From an uncultured Eubacteriales bacterium (GTDB lineage Bacteria > Bacillota_I > Bacilli_A > RF39 > UBA660): DNA of 48,536 nucleotides. Each line of letters opens with the position of its first letter. The stretch's first letter is position 1. Shown here in pieces: positions 6,540 to 13,464 of this stretch. Location: positions 1 to 48,536 of the forward strand of contig OMST01000056.1 of the NCBI GenBank assembly GCA_900313815.1, in the 5' to 3' direction. The notes below the pieces were generated by a model. That model ran no database searches and was not told where the DNA came from. It saw nothing but the letters and a program-made list of their open reading frames with translations. A program made the translations under genes and the position numbers.

Positions 6540-6566
6540 AATATTTCCTTTTCAAAAATATTATAT

Positions 6567-6595
6567 AAAAAAAATTACTTATTTAAAAGTAATTT
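6567..6595 (-). terminator. Terminator or attenuator between rpmH and rnpA
   Basis: Minus strand: AAATTACTT, loop TTAAAT, AAGTAATTT, followed by further T residues (9-bp perfect stem). It sits directly after rpmH and before rnpA, with no separate rnpA promoter recognised, so it may set the high rpmH to low rnpA/yidC expression ratio. Confidence 0.8.
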
Positions 6596-6597
6596 TA

Positions 6598-6720
6598 TTA
6601 TTTTGATAATTCTTTTCTTCCTTTAGATCTTCTTGCTTTTATAACTGAACTACCTTTTCTTGATAAAAAACCAGATGTTTTTCTTTTTTTACTATTATTA
6701 GGTTGAAATGTTCTTTTCAT
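6598..6720 (-). CDS. rpmH: 50S ribosomal protein L34, shortened
   Basis: Forty codons from ATG (6718-6720): [18 protein letters not shown] at the N-terminus and [11 protein letters not shown] at the end, the hallmark L34 pattern. The usual length is 44-46 residues; here about four are missing between the SGF turn and the second helix (the region normally reading MATKNGR). A GGGAG ribosome site lies upstream and a consensus promoter precedes it. First gene leftward of oriC, as in most bacteria. Confidence 0.95.
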
Positions 6721-6751
6721 AAATAACTCCCTTTCTTTAATAACTGAAAAA

Positions 6752-6780
6752 ATTATATATTATCTTTTAATTTTTGTCAA
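6752..6780 (-). promoter_or_regulatory. rpmH promoter (consensus sigma-A type)
   Basis: Minus strand: TTGACA (6780-6775), 17-bp spacer, TATAAT (6757-6752). A perfect housekeeping promoter driving rpmH leftward out of the origin region. Confidence 0.88.
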
Positions 6781-7032
6781 ATTTATAATAATTTACTAAA
6801 TATATAATATTATGTTAACTTCTTTTTTAAGAATATATTAATTTTTTATTAACAACCAACTAACAATATTATGTTAACTTGTTAATAAGGTTGTTAATAA
6901 ATTAATATTATGTTAATAACTTATTTTGTTGATATTGTTGATAACTTGTATTTTTTACTTTAAAATAAGAAAAAATTATGTGGACAAATTATTAATTACT
7001 TGTTAATATAAATGTTAATTAAATTATTTAAT
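6781..7032. other. oriC: Chromosomal origin oriC (dnaA-upstream part)
   Basis: The gap between rpmH and dnaA contains no gene and is extremely AT-rich. The 9-mer TTATTAACA or its complement occurs at 6846-6854 (+), 6880-6888 (-), 6892-6900 (-) and 6911-6919 (-). A related TGTTGATAA is at 6936-6944, and TGTGGACAA, one change from the canonical TGTGGATAA, is at 6979-6987. These resemble DnaA boxes with the central CC of TTATCCACA replaced by TA. A/T-only stretches at about 6945-6976 could serve as the unwinding element. Strand bias of genes flips here (leftward to the left, rightward to the right), which independently supports the origin. A further TTATTAACA lies between dnaA and dnaN (8603-8611), suggesting a bipartite origin as in Bacillus. 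Confidence 0.8.
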
Positions 7033-7060
7033 TTGACATTGAAGAAAGTTGTTTTATAAT
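7033..7060 (+). promoter_or_regulatory. dnaA promoter
   Basis: TTGACA (7033-7038), 16-bp spacer, TATAAT (7055-7060). The first base of the transcript would fall near 7067, so dnaA is expected to start at ATG 7094 rather than at the in-frame upstream TTG at 7049. Confidence 0.82.
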
Positions 7061-7093
7061 TTAATTAGAGGATTAGGGAAAGGATTTGGTTAT

Positions 7094-8533
7094 ATGAATA
7101 ATTCAGATATTTGGTCATCTTTTATAACAAAAGTTAAATCTAAAGTAACTTTAATGTCATATAACTATGTTTTTAAAGATCTTAAATTATATTCCTATGA
7201 AAATTCAATTGTAACTATTATTGTTCCAAATAATGAACTATTACTTCAAAATATTAAAAAAAATTATAATGATATAATTGAGGAAATATTTAATGAAATT
7301 ACAAATGATTCATGTGAAATTAAATATATTTTTCAAAATGATGAAAAGAATATTAAGAAAAAAAGAAATATCATTAATATTAAAGATGAAATAGTTGATA
7401 TAGATAATGAAAATAATATAAATAGCATTGAAGATGAATTTGATGATTTTGATGATAATATATCTAATTATAAATATAATAGTAATTTTAAACCCGAATA
7501 TACATTTGATACTTTTGTAGTTGGAGATTCAAATAAACTGGCGTACGGAACTGCATTATCTGTCGCACAAAATCCAGGTAAATTATATAATCCTTATTTT
7601 ATATATGCAAAAAGTGGACTTGGAAAAACACATTTATTACATGCAATAGGAAATTATATTGTTACTCACTCTGATAAAAAAGTTTTATATATTACAGCTG
7701 AAGAGTTTTCAAATGATTATAGATCAATTATTAATACTAAAAATAAATCAGAAAATAATATATCTTATTTAGAAGCATTTAGAAAAAAATATAGAAATAT
7801 TGATGTTTTAATGATAGATGATATACAATTTTTAGAAAACATGCAAAAATCTCAAATAGAATTTACTAATACTTTTAATTCTTTATATGATAATGAAAAA
7901 CAAATTATTATAGCATCTGATACTTCTATAGATGATTATAAATATTTGGAAGACAGATTAAAAACTAGATTTAGATGGGGATTAACAGAATCTATAAATC
8001 CTCCTGAAATTGAACTTAAAAAAAATATTATTAGAAATAAAATTAAAATTAACAATTATGATTTAGATATTAATGAAGATGTTATAGATTATATTGCTAA
8101 CAATTGCGGAAGTGATATTAGAAACTTAGAAGGTTCAGTATTGAGAATAGTAGCATATAAAGCAACTTTTAATATTGATAATGTTACTTTAGATATTGCA
8201 AAAGAAGCTCTACAAGATTATGTTACTAATAAAGTATATAGAACTAATTCAGTTGAAAAAATAATTGATGTTGTTGCTAAATACTTTAAATTAGATTCTG
8301 GTATGTTAAAAGGAAAAATGAAAAAGAAAAATGTTACTGATGCTAGAGCTATAGCAATGTATCTAAGTAGAATAATGACTGATGAAAGTTTACAACGAAT
8401 AGGATTAGAATTTGGAGGTAGAGATCATTCAACTGTAATTTATTCACATGAAAAAATATCTAATGAATTAAAAAATAATATACAATTACAAGAACAAATT
8501 AAAATACTTAAAGATAAAATATGTGAACAATAA
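7094..8533 (+). CDS. dnaA: Chromosomal replication initiator DnaA
   Basis: 479 residues from ATG 7094, with AAAGGA ten bases upstream. Domain I (1-80), an acidic Asp/Asn-rich linker (about 85-130), AAA+ domain III with Walker A KSGLGKTH (173-180), Walker B VLMIDDIQFL and sensor motif, and domain IV with GGRDHSTVIYSHEKI, the DnaA-box reading helix. In the DNA-binding loop the usual V-x-PRQIAMYL reads VTDARAIAMYL, and the helix has DHS where most have DHT; this may go with the non-canonical TTATTAACA boxes nearby (inference). ATP-bound DnaA melts oriC and recruits the helicase; it also represses its own promoter in many bacteria, and the boxes upstream of the promoter would allow that. Confidence 0.98.
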   Translation: MNNSDIWSSFITKVKSKVTLMSYNYVFKDLKLYSYENSIVTIIVPNNELLLQNIKKNYNDIIEEIFNEITNDSCEIKYIFQNDEKNIKKKRNIINIKDEIVDIDNENNINSIEDEFDDFDDNISNYKYNSNFKPEYTFDTFVVGDSNKLAYGTALSVAQNPGKLYNPYFIYAKSGLGKTHLLHAIGNYIVTHSDKKVLYITAEEFSNDYRSIINTKNKSENNISYLEAFRKKYRNIDVLMIDDIQFLENMQKSQIEFTNTFNSLYDNEKQIIIASDTSIDDYKYLEDRLKTRFRWGLTESINPPEIELKKNIIRNKIKINNYDLDINEDVIDYIANNCGSDIRNLEGSVLRIVAYKATFNIDNVTLDIAKEALQDYVTNKVYRTNSVEKIIDVVAKYFKLDSGMLKGKMKKKNVTDARAIAMYLSRIMTDESLQRIGLEFGGRDHSTVIYSHEKISNELKNNIQLQEQIKILKDKICEQ

Positions 8534-8661
8534 TATATTATTTAACATATTAACATCTATATATAAACAATAAAAATTGTTTAAAATAAAGAAAAAAATA
8601 AGTTATTAACAATATTAACACTAATATTAATAATAATTAAATAATAAAGGAGAAATGAAAA
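8534..8661. other. dnaA-dnaN spacer with one DnaA-box-like element
   Basis: 128 bases of nearly pure A/T. TTATTAACA occurs at 8603-8611, followed by the partial matches ATTAACA and ATTAATA. In Bacillus the corresponding spacer holds the second half of oriC with its unwinding element. No gene fits here. Confidence 0.5.
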
Positions 8662-9780
8662 ATGAAAATGATTATTGAAAAAAGAATATTAATTGAAAGT
8701 TTAAATTGTGTTAGTAAAGCATTAAGTACAAGAAATATTATTCCTGTATTAAATGGTATTAAATTTGATTTAACAAAAAAAGGTTTATTTTTAACAGCAA
8801 CTGATAATGATATAACTATTCAAACTTTTATAGAAAAAAAGAATATTGCATCTATAGAAGAAGAAGGTTGTTCTATTATATATGGAAAAACTTTATTAAA
8901 TACTATTAGTAAATTGCAAAATGGAATGTTAGAAGTAGAAATATTTGAAAATAATGAAGTAACTTTTAAAACAGAAAATGGTGGTATATATAATTTTCCT
9001 TGCTTTAATAAAGAAGATTTTCCTTCTATAAATTTAGAATTACAAAAGAAACCTTTAGAATTAGATGCATTAAAATTTAGAGAAATTATAAATAATACTA
9101 GTTTTGCATGTTCATTACAAGAAAGTAGACCATTATTAACAGGTGTTAACATTAAAATAATAGGAGATTTATTTGAATGTGTTGCAACTGATTCATATAG
9201 ACTTTCTAAATATAATATAAAAATTAATAAAATTCCTGATGAAAATTTTAATATTGTAGTTCCCGCTAGAAATATTAATGAATTTGTAAAAATAATTAAT
9301 GAAGAAAATGTTGTAGAATTACATGTATTTTCAAATAAATTATTATTAAAATATGGAAATGTTTTATTTCAAACATCTTTATTAAATGGTACATATCCTA
9401 ATACTGATAATTCTATTCCAAAAGAATTTAAATATCAAATTCAAGCTAATTTAAAGGAATTTTATTCTTTGTTAGATACAGCATCATCTTTAACGCAATC
9501 AAAAGATAAAAATATAGTAGATTTAGAAATCAAAGATAATAATTTAATTATAAGTGCGACTAGTTTAGAAGGAAAAGGAAAGGATAAAATAAATATTCAA
9601 AATAAAACAAAGAATAATATAAAAATTTCTTTTAGTGTAAGATATATGTTAGAAGCATTAAAAGTATTTAAAGAAGAAGATATTCAAATATTATTAAATG
9701 GTGAAATAAGTCCTATTATATTAAAAAATTTAAAAAATGAAGAATTAATTGAATTAATTTTACCAATGAAGACATATTAA
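8662..9780 (+). CDS. dnaN: DNA polymerase III beta sliding clamp
   Basis: 372 residues, standard length, three repeated clamp domains. N-terminus MKMIIEKRILIESLNCVSKALSTRNIIPVLNGI and C-terminus ELIELILPMKTY match the family; the terminal (L/M)P(M/V)R-type tail is LPMKTY. Forms the dimeric ring that tethers polymerase, and its hydrophobic pocket binds clamp-binding motifs of partners. AAAGGAG lies about ten bases before ATG 8662. Followed directly by a strong terminator. Confidence 0.97.
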   Translation: MKMIIEKRILIESLNCVSKALSTRNIIPVLNGIKFDLTKKGLFLTATDNDITIQTFIEKKNIASIEEEGCSIIYGKTLLNTISKLQNGMLEVEIFENNEVTFKTENGGIYNFPCFNKEDFPSINLELQKKPLELDALKFREIINNTSFACSLQESRPLLTGVNIKIIGDLFECVATDSYRLSKYNIKINKIPDENFNIVVPARNINEFVKIINEENVVELHVFSNKLLLKYGNVLFQTSLLNGTYPNTDNSIPKEFKYQIQANLKEFYSLLDTASSLTQSKDKNIVDLEIKDNNLIISATSLEGKGKDKINIQNKTKNNIKISFSVRYMLEALKVFKEEDIQILLNGEISPIILKNLKNEELIELILPMKTY

Positions 9781-9804
9781 AAACGAATTTATTCGTTTTT
9801 TTTT
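9780..9804 (+). terminator. Terminator after dnaN
   Basis: AAAACGAA, loop TTTA, TTCGTTTT and a run of T. Ends the dnaA-dnaN unit. Confidence 0.88.
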
Positions 9805-9819
9805 ATAAAAAAATATGAA

Positions 9820-9869
9820 TTCGACACTATTCGACAAATTTCGACAAACCTATTATGTTATTGTATTAG
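9820..9869 (+). promoter_or_regulatory. comK-like gene promoter with three phased TTCGACA repeats
   Basis: TTCGACA occurs at 9820-9826, 9830-9836 and 9840-9846, exactly 10 bp apart, that is on one face of the helix. The third copy contains TCGACA (9841-9846), which with a 17-bp spacer and TATTAG (9864-9869) forms a plausible -35/-10 pair. The C/G content of the repeats stands out in this AT-rich DNA. An operator overlapping the promoter is the simplest reading; the binding protein is unknown. Confidence 0.55.
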
Positions 9870-9899
9870 TCATTATTTAAAGAAAGGGGGAATTCTTAA

Positions 9900-10358
9900 A
9901 TGGATTATGAAATTAATTATGATACTCAGGCTATAATACCTATTTCAGAAACAAGTTGTAAAGTATTAGAAAATAATGAAAAATATATAATTAATTCATC
10001 AGTATTAAGTTTAATGGAACATAGTTGTGAATATTTTGGTAGTTCATTTACTGGAAGAAAAGAAGGAACAAAAAAATTACTTGGTATAACACATAAATCA
10101 CCAATAATAGTTGAAGAAAGTAGAAAAATAATATTCTTTCCAACAACTTCTCCAGATAATATTGAATGTGTATGGATTAATCTTGAAAAAATAGATAAAT
10201 ATTATAGAGTAAGTTCAAAAAAATCTGAGATATTATTTAAAAATGGAAATAGAATAACTATTAATATTTCTTATGGTTCATTATCTAATCAAATATTAAG
10301 ATCAACAAGATTAAAATATATATTAGAAGAAAGAACTGAAAAAAAAGGTGTTTTTTAA
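9900..10358 (+). CDS. comK: ComK-family competence transcription factor
   Basis: 152 residues. Clear ComK signature: HSCEYFGSSFTGRKEGT (about 40-56), ITHKSPIIVE, an IIFFPTTSP block, CVWINLEKI and SYGSLSNQILRSTRLKY near the end. ComK activates DNA-uptake and recombination genes by binding AAAA-N5-TTTT boxes in Bacillus. It lacks the C-terminal tail of about 40 residues that in B. subtilis is the MecA/ClpC degradation target, so its turnover may differ. GGGGG ribosome site before ATG 9900. It replaces the S4-domain gene (yaaA/rlbA) usually found between dnaN and recF; I see no K-box at its own promoter. Confidence 0.88.
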   Translation: MDYEINYDTQAIIPISETSCKVLENNEKYIINSSVLSLMEHSCEYFGSSFTGRKEGTKKLLGITHKSPIIVEESRKIIFFPTTSPDNIECVWINLEKIDKYYRVSSKKSEILFKNGNRITINISYGSLSNQILRSTRLKYILEERTEKKGVF

Positions 10359-10376
10359 TAAAATACCTTTTTTAAA
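10339..10376 (+). terminator. Terminator after comK
   Basis: AAAAAAGGTGTTTT, 5-base loop, AAAATACCTTTTTT: a 14-bp stem with one G-T pair, overlapping the end of comK. The T tract may double as the -35 of the next promoter. Confidence 0.78.
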
Positions 10377-10387
10377 TTAAATTAATA

Positions 10388-10396
10388 TGATATAAT
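10388..10396 (+). promoter_or_regulatory. Extended -10 promoter of the recF-gyrB-gyrA unit
   Basis: TGATATAAT, a TG-N-TATAAT element; TTTTTT of the preceding terminator lies 17 bp upstream. The predicted leader (about 10403-10462) begins with an unusually GC-rich GTGTGTAGGTGACCGAG, whose role is unclear. Confidence 0.55.
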
Positions 10397-10462
10397 TAAT
10401 ATGTGTGTAGGTGACCGAGAAAATATTAAAAATTAAAATTAAGGTTAAAAATGAGGTCTAAA

Positions 10463-11548
10463 ATGAATATTACAAAAATTGAACTACTTAATTTTAGAAA
10501 TTATACAAAAAAAATCTTTGATAATTTTACTAACTTAAATATCATAATTGGAAAAAATGGAATTGGTAAGACAAGTATTTTAGAAGCAATATATTTAGGG
10601 AGTTTGGCTAAATCTTTTAAAACAAATATTGAAACATCTGTTATAAAAGAAGGGCAATCATTTTATAAATTAAAGATTACTTATTTTGATTATGGTCCTA
10701 AAAAAAATATAGAAATATATTTAGATAAATCAGGAAAGAAAACGAAAATAAATGGTAAATTACAAAGTAAATTAAGTGATTTTATTTCTCAATATAGAAT
10801 TATATTATTATCTCCGGATGAATTAAAATTAATAAAATCATCACCAAATACACGAAGAAATTATCTTAATATAGAAATTTCTCAATTACATAAAGAATAT
10901 ATATATTATTTAAACAATTATAATAATCTAATAAAAAATAAAAATGATTTTTTAAAAAAATTAATGATAAATGGAAATTTAGATGATAGATATTTAGATG
11001 TAATTGATCAAAAAATAGTTTCTGAAGGATTAAAAATATATGAATTTAGGAAAAAATATATTGATTCTATTAATGATAATATAAATAGTATTTTTAATAA
11101 ATATGTAAGTAATCAAAATTTATATATAAAATACGAATCAGATTATGAAATAAATGATAGTGAGAAATTATTAAAAATATTAAAAAAGAATAGAAAAAAA
11201 GAAATTAATATAGGTATGACTGATTTTGGGGTTCATAGAGATGATCTTTCATTTATATATAATGGTAATTCTGCAAAAGAATATAGCTCTCAAGGTACTC
11301 AAAAATTAATAGTGCTCGCAATGAAATTAGCTGAAGTTAAAATATTTATTAATAAATACAATATATATCCTATATTATTGTTAGATGATTTATTCAGTGA
11401 ATTAGACATGAAAAATAGAAATAATATATTTAAATCATTGGATGATAATATTCAAATATTTATAACAACAACTGATTTAAAAAATATTAATAAAAATATA
11501 ATTAAAAAAGCAAAAATATATAATTTAGATGAGAAGGTGAAAAAATGA
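10463..11548 (+). CDS. recF: DNA replication and repair protein RecF
   Basis: 361 residues from ATG 10463, chosen because GAGGT lies six bases upstream and [14 protein letters not shown] aligns with RecF starts; an in-frame ATG at 10451 overlaps that ribosome site. SMC-like ATPase: Walker [10 protein letters not shown] (30-38), signature region near [18 protein letters not shown], Walker [13 protein letters not shown]. Loads RecA onto gapped DNA with RecO and RecR (recR is at 19182). Its stop overlaps the gyrB start as ATGA. Confidence 0.96.
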
Positions 11549-13464
11549 AAGAAGAATATGGAGTAAATGATATTCAAGTATTAGAAGGATTAGAAGCTGT
11601 AAGAAAAAGACCAGGTATGTATATAGGTACAACTGACCTAAAAGGATTACATCATTTGGTATGGGAAATAGTTGATAATTCAATTGATGAAGCATTAGCC
11701 GGTTATTGCAAAAATATAGAAATAATTATTAATAAAGATAATTCTATAACTGTAAAAGATGATGGACGTGGAATTCCTGTTGGAATACACCCTAAAACTG
11801 GAATATCAACTGTAGAAACTGTATATACAGTACTTCATGCAGGAGGAAAATTTGGTGGAGGGGGATATAAAGTATCTGGTGGACTTCACGGAGTAGGTGC
11901 ATCTGTTGTAAATGCTTTATCAAAATGGGTTGATGTTACTGTTTATAAAGATGGTAAAATATATAATACCAAATTTGAAAATGGTGGAAAAACAGTACAA
12001 AAATTAACTGTAGTAGGAGAATGTGAAAAAGATAGAAGTGGTACAACAGTTACATTTAAACCTGATCCTGATATTTTTGATTCAGATATCTATGATTATG
12101 AGACTTTAAAAGTAAGAACTAGAGAATTAGCATTTTTAAATAAAGGATTACAATTAACTTTAAGAGATGATAGAGATGAAAAAGATACTCAAGGAGATAA
12201 ATTTTTATATGAAGGTGGAATCAGTGAGTATGTTAAATTTATAAATCAAGAAAAAACTCCTTTACATGAAAAAATTATTCATTTAAATGGAGAAAAAGAT
12301 GGAATAATGTTTGAAGTAGCTCTTCAATATAATAATGGATATAATGATAATATTTATTCATTTGTTAATAATATTAATACTCATGATGGTGGTACTCATG
12401 AAGATGGTGTTAAAAGAGCACTTGTTAGAGTAACAAATTCATATGCAAGAAAAAATAATATATTAAAAGAAAAAGATGAAAATTTAACAATAGATGATGT
12501 TAAAGAAGGATTAACGATGATTATTTCTTGTAAACATCCTAATCCTCAATTTGAAGGTCAAACTAAAGGAAGACTAGGAAATTCTGAAGTAAAAAATTTA
12601 GCAGATAGTGTTTTTGCAGAAGGATATGAACAATTTTTATTAGAAAATCCTGAAGAAGCAAAATTAATAGTAAGTAAGTCTATACTTGCTAAGAATGCTA
12701 GAATGGCAGCAAAGAGAGCTAGGGAAGCAACAAGAAAAAGTGATTTAGCAACAACTAATTTTTTTGGAAAACTATCCGATTGTAAGAGCAAAGATCCAAC
12801 TATTTCAGAAATATTTATAGTCGAGGGAGATAGTGCTGGTGGTTCGGCTAAAAAAGGAAGAGATTCGATGACACAAGCAATATTACCTTTAAGAGGAAAA
12901 ATATTAAATGTAGAAAAAGCTCGTCAGGATAAAGCATTAGCTAATGAAGAAATTAGAACAATAATAACTGCATTCGGTACTGGAATTGGTGAATATTTTG
13001 ATTTATCAAAATTGAGATACGATAAAATAATAATTATGACCGATGCTGATGTTGATGGTTCTCATATTAGAGTATTATTACTAACTTTATTTTATAGATT
13101 TTTTAGACCAATTGTTGAGGCAGGACATGTATATGCTGCACAACCCCCATTATTTAGAATAATGCATGGTAAAACACGAAAATATGTACTAAATGAAGCC
13201 GAACTAAATGATTATATGAATAGTTTACCTGAAAATATTCGTTCTAGAGCTGAAGTTGCTCGTATGAAAGGTTTAGGAGAAATGGATGCTGAAGAATTAA
13301 ATGAAACAACAATGGATATTAATAAAAGAGTTTTAAGAAAAATAACTGTTGAAGACTGCATAGCCGCAGATGCTATATTTGAAAAATTAATGGGTGATGA
13401 AGTAGAACCAAGAAGAAAATTTATTGAAGAAAATGCAGGATATGTTCAAAATTTAGATATATAG
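11545..13464 (+). CDS. gyrB: DNA gyrase subunit B
   Basis: 639 residues. GHKL ATPase domain ([39 protein letters not shown]), transducer, TOPRIM with [14 protein letters not shown] and DADVDGSH, and the gyrase tail [27 protein letters not shown] is intact. Introduces negative supercoils together with GyrA, encoded 13 bases downstream after an AGGAGG site. Four-base overlap with recF. Confidence 0.98.

Follow-up and report, generated by a model that had tools for sequence, protein, structure and literature searches.

The window, that is, the whole stretch of DNA analysed (48,536 nt), has a GC content of 24% and carries the gene order dnaA-dnaN-comK-recF-gyrB, with comK placed between two hairpins. 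DnaA and DnaN are confirmed by Pfam, while recF and gyrB are named from their sequences. The gene behind the repeat array had been predicted to encode ComK, and the profile PF06338 confirms this with an E-value of 1.4e-44 and a score of 151.9 bits against a cut-off of 22.3. The features of the comK region are the following.

8662..9780, + strand: dnaN (sliding clamp), upstream neighbour, with Pfam DNA_pol3_beta domains
9779..9800, + strand: hairpin downstream of dnaN, terminator-like, with a T tail; folding energy -5.6 kcal/mol (z -2.6)
9820..9826, + strand: 0A box 1, TTCGACA (TGTCGAA on the other strand), at about -51 to -45; conserved in genus and family
9830..9836, + strand: 0A box 2, at about -41 to -35; the middle box, with the lowest conservation
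9840..9846, + strand: 0A box 3, at about -31 to -25, within the promoter spacer; the best conserved
9856..9864, + strand: extended -10 TGTTATTGT, with TG at 9856-9857 and the hexamer at 9859-9864; no -35 at 16-18 bp
9880..9890, + strand: ribosome-binding site AAGAAAGGGGG before comK, recognised by sequence; similar in the genus
9900..10358, + strand: comK, 152 aa
10341..10373, + strand: hairpin downstream of comK and ahead of recF; folding energy -12.9 kcal/mol (z -4.4)

The consensus terminator scan found no site (0) and lists neither hairpin, and the consensus promoter scan stayed at background, with 11 sites against 7.9 expected. The stem of the hairpin at 9779..9800 includes 2 G-C pairs only; this terminator-like element would separate comK from dnaN transcription. 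At positions 7049-13464, comK is part of the origin gene cluster, with dnaN on one side and recF on the other. The likely origin, at 6540-7048, has no exact TTATCCACA box and instead shows repeated ATGTTAA / TTGTTAATAA words, its two one-mismatch DnaA boxes at 6936 and 6979 being the only ones; the cumulative GC skew reaches its minimum at 6864, some 3 kb from the array. No exact ComK box (AAAA-N5-TTTT) is found in 9701-9900. The sole other known site searched was the DnaA box, which occurs within 1 mismatch 16 times against 17.8 expected.

The heptamer TTCGACA occurs in the window three times only, always on the + strand and always in the array. This count alone is ordinary, as 1.87 copies are expected and 30 of 100 shuffles reach three. 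The significance of the array comes instead from its register, since 4.4e-10 triples at 10-bp spacing are expected under an order-1 Markov model of the window. The original prediction of an exact 10-bp register (starts at 9820, 9830 and 9840), of scarce CG dinucleotides (CpG observed/expected 0.49) and of a register unlikely by chance thus holds on all three points. Only one other site in the window, at its right end around 48502, has a 7-mer recurring three times at a fixed spacing of 8 to 40 bp, and this is a 12-bp repeat.

The same prediction had set the motif apart from any known site, after considering those of ComK, CodY, AbrB and LexA; Spo0A is absent from that list, and the claim fails. 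The reverse complement of TTCGACA is exactly TGTCGAA, the core 0A box, so that the array consists of three exact copies of the Spo0A box read on the opposite strand. Where PMC3485338 deals with the binding site, TGTCGAA is given as the published core Spo0A site, with contacts to G2, C4 and G5. The genome itself (1.03 Mb in 75 contigs, 67.5% complete) encodes a Spo0A protein of 254 aa at C48:4390-5154, with both receiver and DNA-binding parts present, as well as SpoIIGA, SpoIIR and ComEC. The DNA-binding half of this Spo0A aligns to the structure 1LQ1 (E 2e-41), and segment RVERAIRHAIEV is identical. The spo0A promoter of this genome has no perfect box.

Conservation of the array at comK promoters

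A ComK match was obtained in 14 of the 18 genomes of the genus, and the four without a match were left out of the promoter counts. Three perfect boxes are present in 6 of these 14 comK promoters (the window included), two in 4, one in 2, and degenerate boxes only in 2. When up to 3 mismatches in 21 are allowed, the three-box array is found at 10-bp spacing in 12 of the 14 promoters and at spacings of 8, 9, 11, 12 or 13 bp in none. To sample the family, 71 other genera were each represented by a single genome and its comK locus. These loci came from the best-scoring ComK hits in a search of 150 genera, so that the sample leans to good ComK matches; one genus with comK at a contig start was skipped, and a script set the start codons. 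Of the 71 genera, 37 have a three-box array with 5 or fewer mismatches in 21, whereas none of 655 control windows taken at these loci and none of 59 recF upstream regions has one. The two-box array with at most 2 mismatches is present in 27 of 71, again against 0 of 655 control windows. No three-box array within 5 mismatches was found in the family comK promoters at spacings of 8, 9, 11, 12 or 13 bp. The remaining 34 genera have more than 5 mismatches, and in them the array is weak or missing.

The array thus recurs across many genera of this uncultured family. The original prediction hinged on the repeats being present at the orthologous comK promoters of relatives, which they are, in the genus as well as beyond it. 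This conservation also refutes a chance repeat, a reading to which the usual number of heptamers in the window would lend itself: with a register expectation of about 4e-10 and retention in genus and family at 10 bp only, its probability is practically nil.

ComK is found in 351 and Spo0A in 354 of the 386 family genomes sampled. The gene dnaN or recF is recognised beside comK in 64 of the 71 sampled genera, and both are in 55; the location of comK in the origin cluster is therefore a family trait. In five relatives of the genus (G002, G004, G014, G016 and G017), spoIIR and comK share a contig and are about 16-18 kb apart, so that spoIIR is also near the origin.

Other promoters carrying tandem 0A boxes

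We searched the family for the perfect tandem TTCGACANNNTTCGACA, which is present in 148 of 386 genomes; the backwards-read control gave 0 among the matches listed. A search for tandem TTCGACA elsewhere in the genome, suggested along with the original prediction, revealed one further place with TTCGACANNNTTCGACA, 33 bp upstream of a sensor histidine kinase gene; a looser pattern gave one control match in this genome. Among 30 perfect-tandem loci of the family, the gene behind belongs to one kinase family in 14 cases, to Spo0A in 4, to AgrB in 4, to ComK in 3 and to other or no genes in 4, with one SigE/SigK-like sigma factor whose assignment is below the NCBIfam cut-offs. In 25 of these 30 loci the TTCGACA side faces the gene, and in 1 the opposite side does. 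The site is thus present at other promoters of the lineage, those of kinase, spo0A, spoIIGA and agrB genes, the kinase, spo0A and agrB lists being drawn from perfect two-box matches only. Judged by its members, the gene set behind the tandems is what one would expect of a Spo0A regulon.

Several of these loci deserve individual mention. A sensor histidine kinase of about 391 aa (L001 1501-2726; G000, contig C13) lies behind a perfect two-box array and has homologues behind arrays across the family, and is a candidate Spo0A kinase. In the genus relative G010, a perfect tandem 0A pair precedes the gene of a divergent SigE/SigK-like sigma factor (L150 796-1482). AgrB-like peptide processing genes stand behind tandem 0A boxes at L165-L168 and L072 (L165 by Pfam, the others by similarity), a hint that a peptide signal may be linked to Spo0A. 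By eye, the single 0A box at L265, L280, L281 and other spoIIGA loci of the genus appears to occupy the loop of an inverted repeat with T runs behind it, as if one element served as both terminator and operator; the stem of this inverted repeat is absent from the fold, which covered only part of the element.

A scan of public genomes for the triple array returned at least 118 stretches, 10 of which precede ComK. Among the matches listed, 26 of 80 are not clearly Bacillota by their record titles, and several carry 10-bp tandem repeats of another kind. A triple TTCGACA array also precedes a tyrosine recombinase family in a Lachnospiraceae record (L092) and in L112, L122 and L133, with Pfam run on L092 only.

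OmpR-type regulators typically use direct repeats spaced by about one helical turn, and the array might serve a protein other than Spo0A whose site is a TTCGACA-like direct repeat, whether a response regulator of the OmpR/PhoP type or an unknown competence repressor. The arrays kept in some genomes without detected Spo0A would agree with this: a three-box array within 5 mismatches is present in 9 of 20 such genomes versus 36 of 68 with Spo0A, which is no overall difference (p = 0.60). Many of the 20 have same-genus relatives that bear Spo0A, so undetected Spo0A in many genomes is probably due to assembly gaps. In genus g127, Spo0A is undetected in 3 of 3 genomes and the array is missing in the same 3 (10, 11 and 10 mismatches), although this comparison was made post hoc. 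The loss of the array in the one genus consistently without Spo0A, the exact identity to the 0A box, the arrays before spo0A and its likely kinases and the boxes before spoIIGA all argue against a different regulator, which we regard as very improbable.

Promoter geometry and the sign of regulation

We placed the -10 element by scoring TATAAT at each distance from the last box. In comK promoters of the genus it is found at a gap of 12 bp, and TGnTAnnnT is present in 12 of the 12 promoters scored. The best gap is 11 bp both in comK promoters of other genera (at most one mismatch to TATAAT in 18 of 28) and in the kinase promoters (12 of 17). For spoIIGA, 28 of 30 loci were used (two were dropped) and 16 of them have a box; the -10 follows this single box by 21 bp, within one mismatch in 13 of 16 promoters and as TAnnnT in all 16. 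The single spoIIGA box thus stands where box 2 of comK does, 21-22 bp before the -10 or at about -41 to -35, and the comK promoter corresponds to the spoIIGA frame with one extra box 10 bp to each side. The TG of the extended -10 is present in 12 of 12 comK promoters of the genus and in 16 of 28 from other genera. In the window, comK transcription is predicted to start at about 9871. At 16-18 bp before the -10, no more than 2 of 6 positions match a TTGACA-like -35 hexamer in 37 of 40 comK and 17 of 17 kinase promoters, fewer matches than at random.

The last repeat had originally been read as the -35. This assignment does not stand, as a conserved extended -10 follows box 3 by 11-12 bp and no -35 hexamer lies at 16-18 bp. 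What survives of the predicted layout is a regulator site phased on one face of the DNA and suited to cooperative control of comK; the notion of an unknown site, with its last copy as the -35, is not supported. Two other placements of the -10 were discarded. TATTAG at 9864-9869, the end of the interval first described, requires a 17-bp gap that fits 1 of 12 promoters of the genus within one mismatch. A TATAAC-like -10 further downstream, at a 15-bp gap, fits 5 of 12 within one mismatch, the window's promoter not being one of the five, and TGnTAnnnT at 12 of 12 was preferred.

This geometry also bears on whether the array serves comK at all. Spo0A acts at the B. subtilis origin, and boxes between dnaN and recF could instead let it restrain replication initiation in sporulating cells, a reading in keeping with the GC-skew minimum some 3 kb away. 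The boxes, however, keep a fixed distance to the -10 before comK, no TTCGNCA lies near dnaA in the window, and the same array precedes genes that are not at an origin; a role at the origin is therefore hardly to be expected.

We consider it very probable that the array is an operator for Spo0A~P, bound cooperatively and controlling comK directly. Tandem 0A boxes are bound head to tail about one turn apart, as in the structure of the Spo0A DNA-binding domain. Here, the three consensus boxes share one orientation and follow each other at one helical turn, and Spo0A~P would bind them cooperatively in a head-to-tail manner; the bound protein would cover the upstream half of the comK promoter, and comK transcription would respond directly to Spo0A~P. 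The computed support consists of the identity of the motif, a Spo0A with an unchanged recognition segment, the kept register and position, a design also seen at the promoters of spo0A, the kinase genes and spoIIGA, and a missing -35. From these we infer binding in the cell, its cooperativity and the sign of regulation.

As to the sign, the balance tilts modestly towards activation rather than repression, because the promoter has no -35 and follows the spoIIGA frame, and because the kinase promoters have no other element to depend on. In the opposite arrangement, the same operator would repress, with Spo0A~P at -51 to -25 covering the RNA polymerase site and shutting comK at commitment to sporulation. 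The distribution of mismatches fits such a role, as box 3 in the spacer is the best conserved and the middle box, at the position of the spoIIGA box, the least (means of 0.61 versus 1.68 mismatches in 28 promoters of other genera, and 0.08 versus 0.83 in 12 of the genus), and the extended -10 could work without an activator. Where PMC3297582 treats the comK promoter of B. subtilis, Spo0A sites R1 (over the -35) and R2 likewise close the comK window. On the other hand, kinase promoters share the frame without a -35, and usually without the TG, and therefore look activator-dependent, and spoIIGA has its box at the position of box 2. In known spore formers, spoIIGA is activated by Spo0A. Repression is thus a tentative alternative that we consider less plausible than activation, and a two-phase response of comK to Spo0A~P would take up what remains.

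Consensus boxes are linked to a low Spo0A~P threshold. Because the comK boxes match the consensus, they suggest that comK would need less Spo0A~P for its response than genes with weak boxes do. Some Spo0A-independent activity of comK is possible, since the promoter has an extended -10.

Implications and comparison with known systems

Since Spo0A sites front comK across many genera, sporulation and DNA uptake are probably wired together in this uncultured family. We thus predict that competence is under direct control of the sporulation regulator beyond Bacillus, recurring across an uncultured family of Bacilli. The part on sporulation in a study of RF39, RFN20 and ML615J-28, all orders of Bacilli (PMC10868615), predicts that RF39 sporulates and keeps spoIIGA; we infer that the family studied here belongs to RF39. 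The array offers a simple, mutable operator for testing Spo0A control of comK, and a family-specific signature of the Spo0A regulon (spo0A, kinase, spoIIGA, agrB, comK) could help to infer sporulation and DNA-uptake behaviour from metagenome genomes. More speculatively, and with considerable doubt, comK might be a two-input switch in the origin cluster, both an early, low-threshold target of Spo0A~P and a gene whose dose follows replication owing to its location about 3 kb from the origin, so that replication stress would raise competence. In pneumococcus, replication stress raises competence via origin-near competence genes. If this were true of comK, the decision to sporulate would carry competence as an obligate early branch, and would do so in a very large group of uncultured Bacilli.

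Two known systems come close to this promoter. The spoIIG class comprises Spo0A-activated sigma-A promoters with an over-long spacer. The spoIIGA box of the family lies exactly 21 bp before the -10, which is the frame of comK box 2, whereas comK adds boxes 10 bp to either side, one of them inside the spacer, and an extended -10. The 7-bp core is identical to the 0A boxes bound by the Spo0A DNA-binding domain in 1LQ1; unlike the boxes of many known targets, described as imperfect in the account of Spo0A sites in PMC3485338, those found here are three perfect copies in a row.

Direct control of comK by Spo0A is already known in B. subtilis, and the same is predicted in the family studied here. 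As the account of the comK promoter in Mirouze et al. 2012 (PMC3297582) has it, Spo0A~P binds directly near this promoter and sets when ComK can rise: sites A1-A3 relieve Rok, and R1 and R2 close the window. The B. subtilis promoter thus has five scattered sites with 1-2 mismatches, three activating and two repressing, set against Rok, whereas the promoter described here has three consensus boxes in a strict 10-bp tandem, comK within the dnaA-dnaN-recF-gyrB cluster, and no exact ComK box in 9701-9900. No paper on comK in this setting was found in the open-access library searched. What is new is the tandem consensus design, its recurrence across the family and the place of comK in the origin gene cluster.
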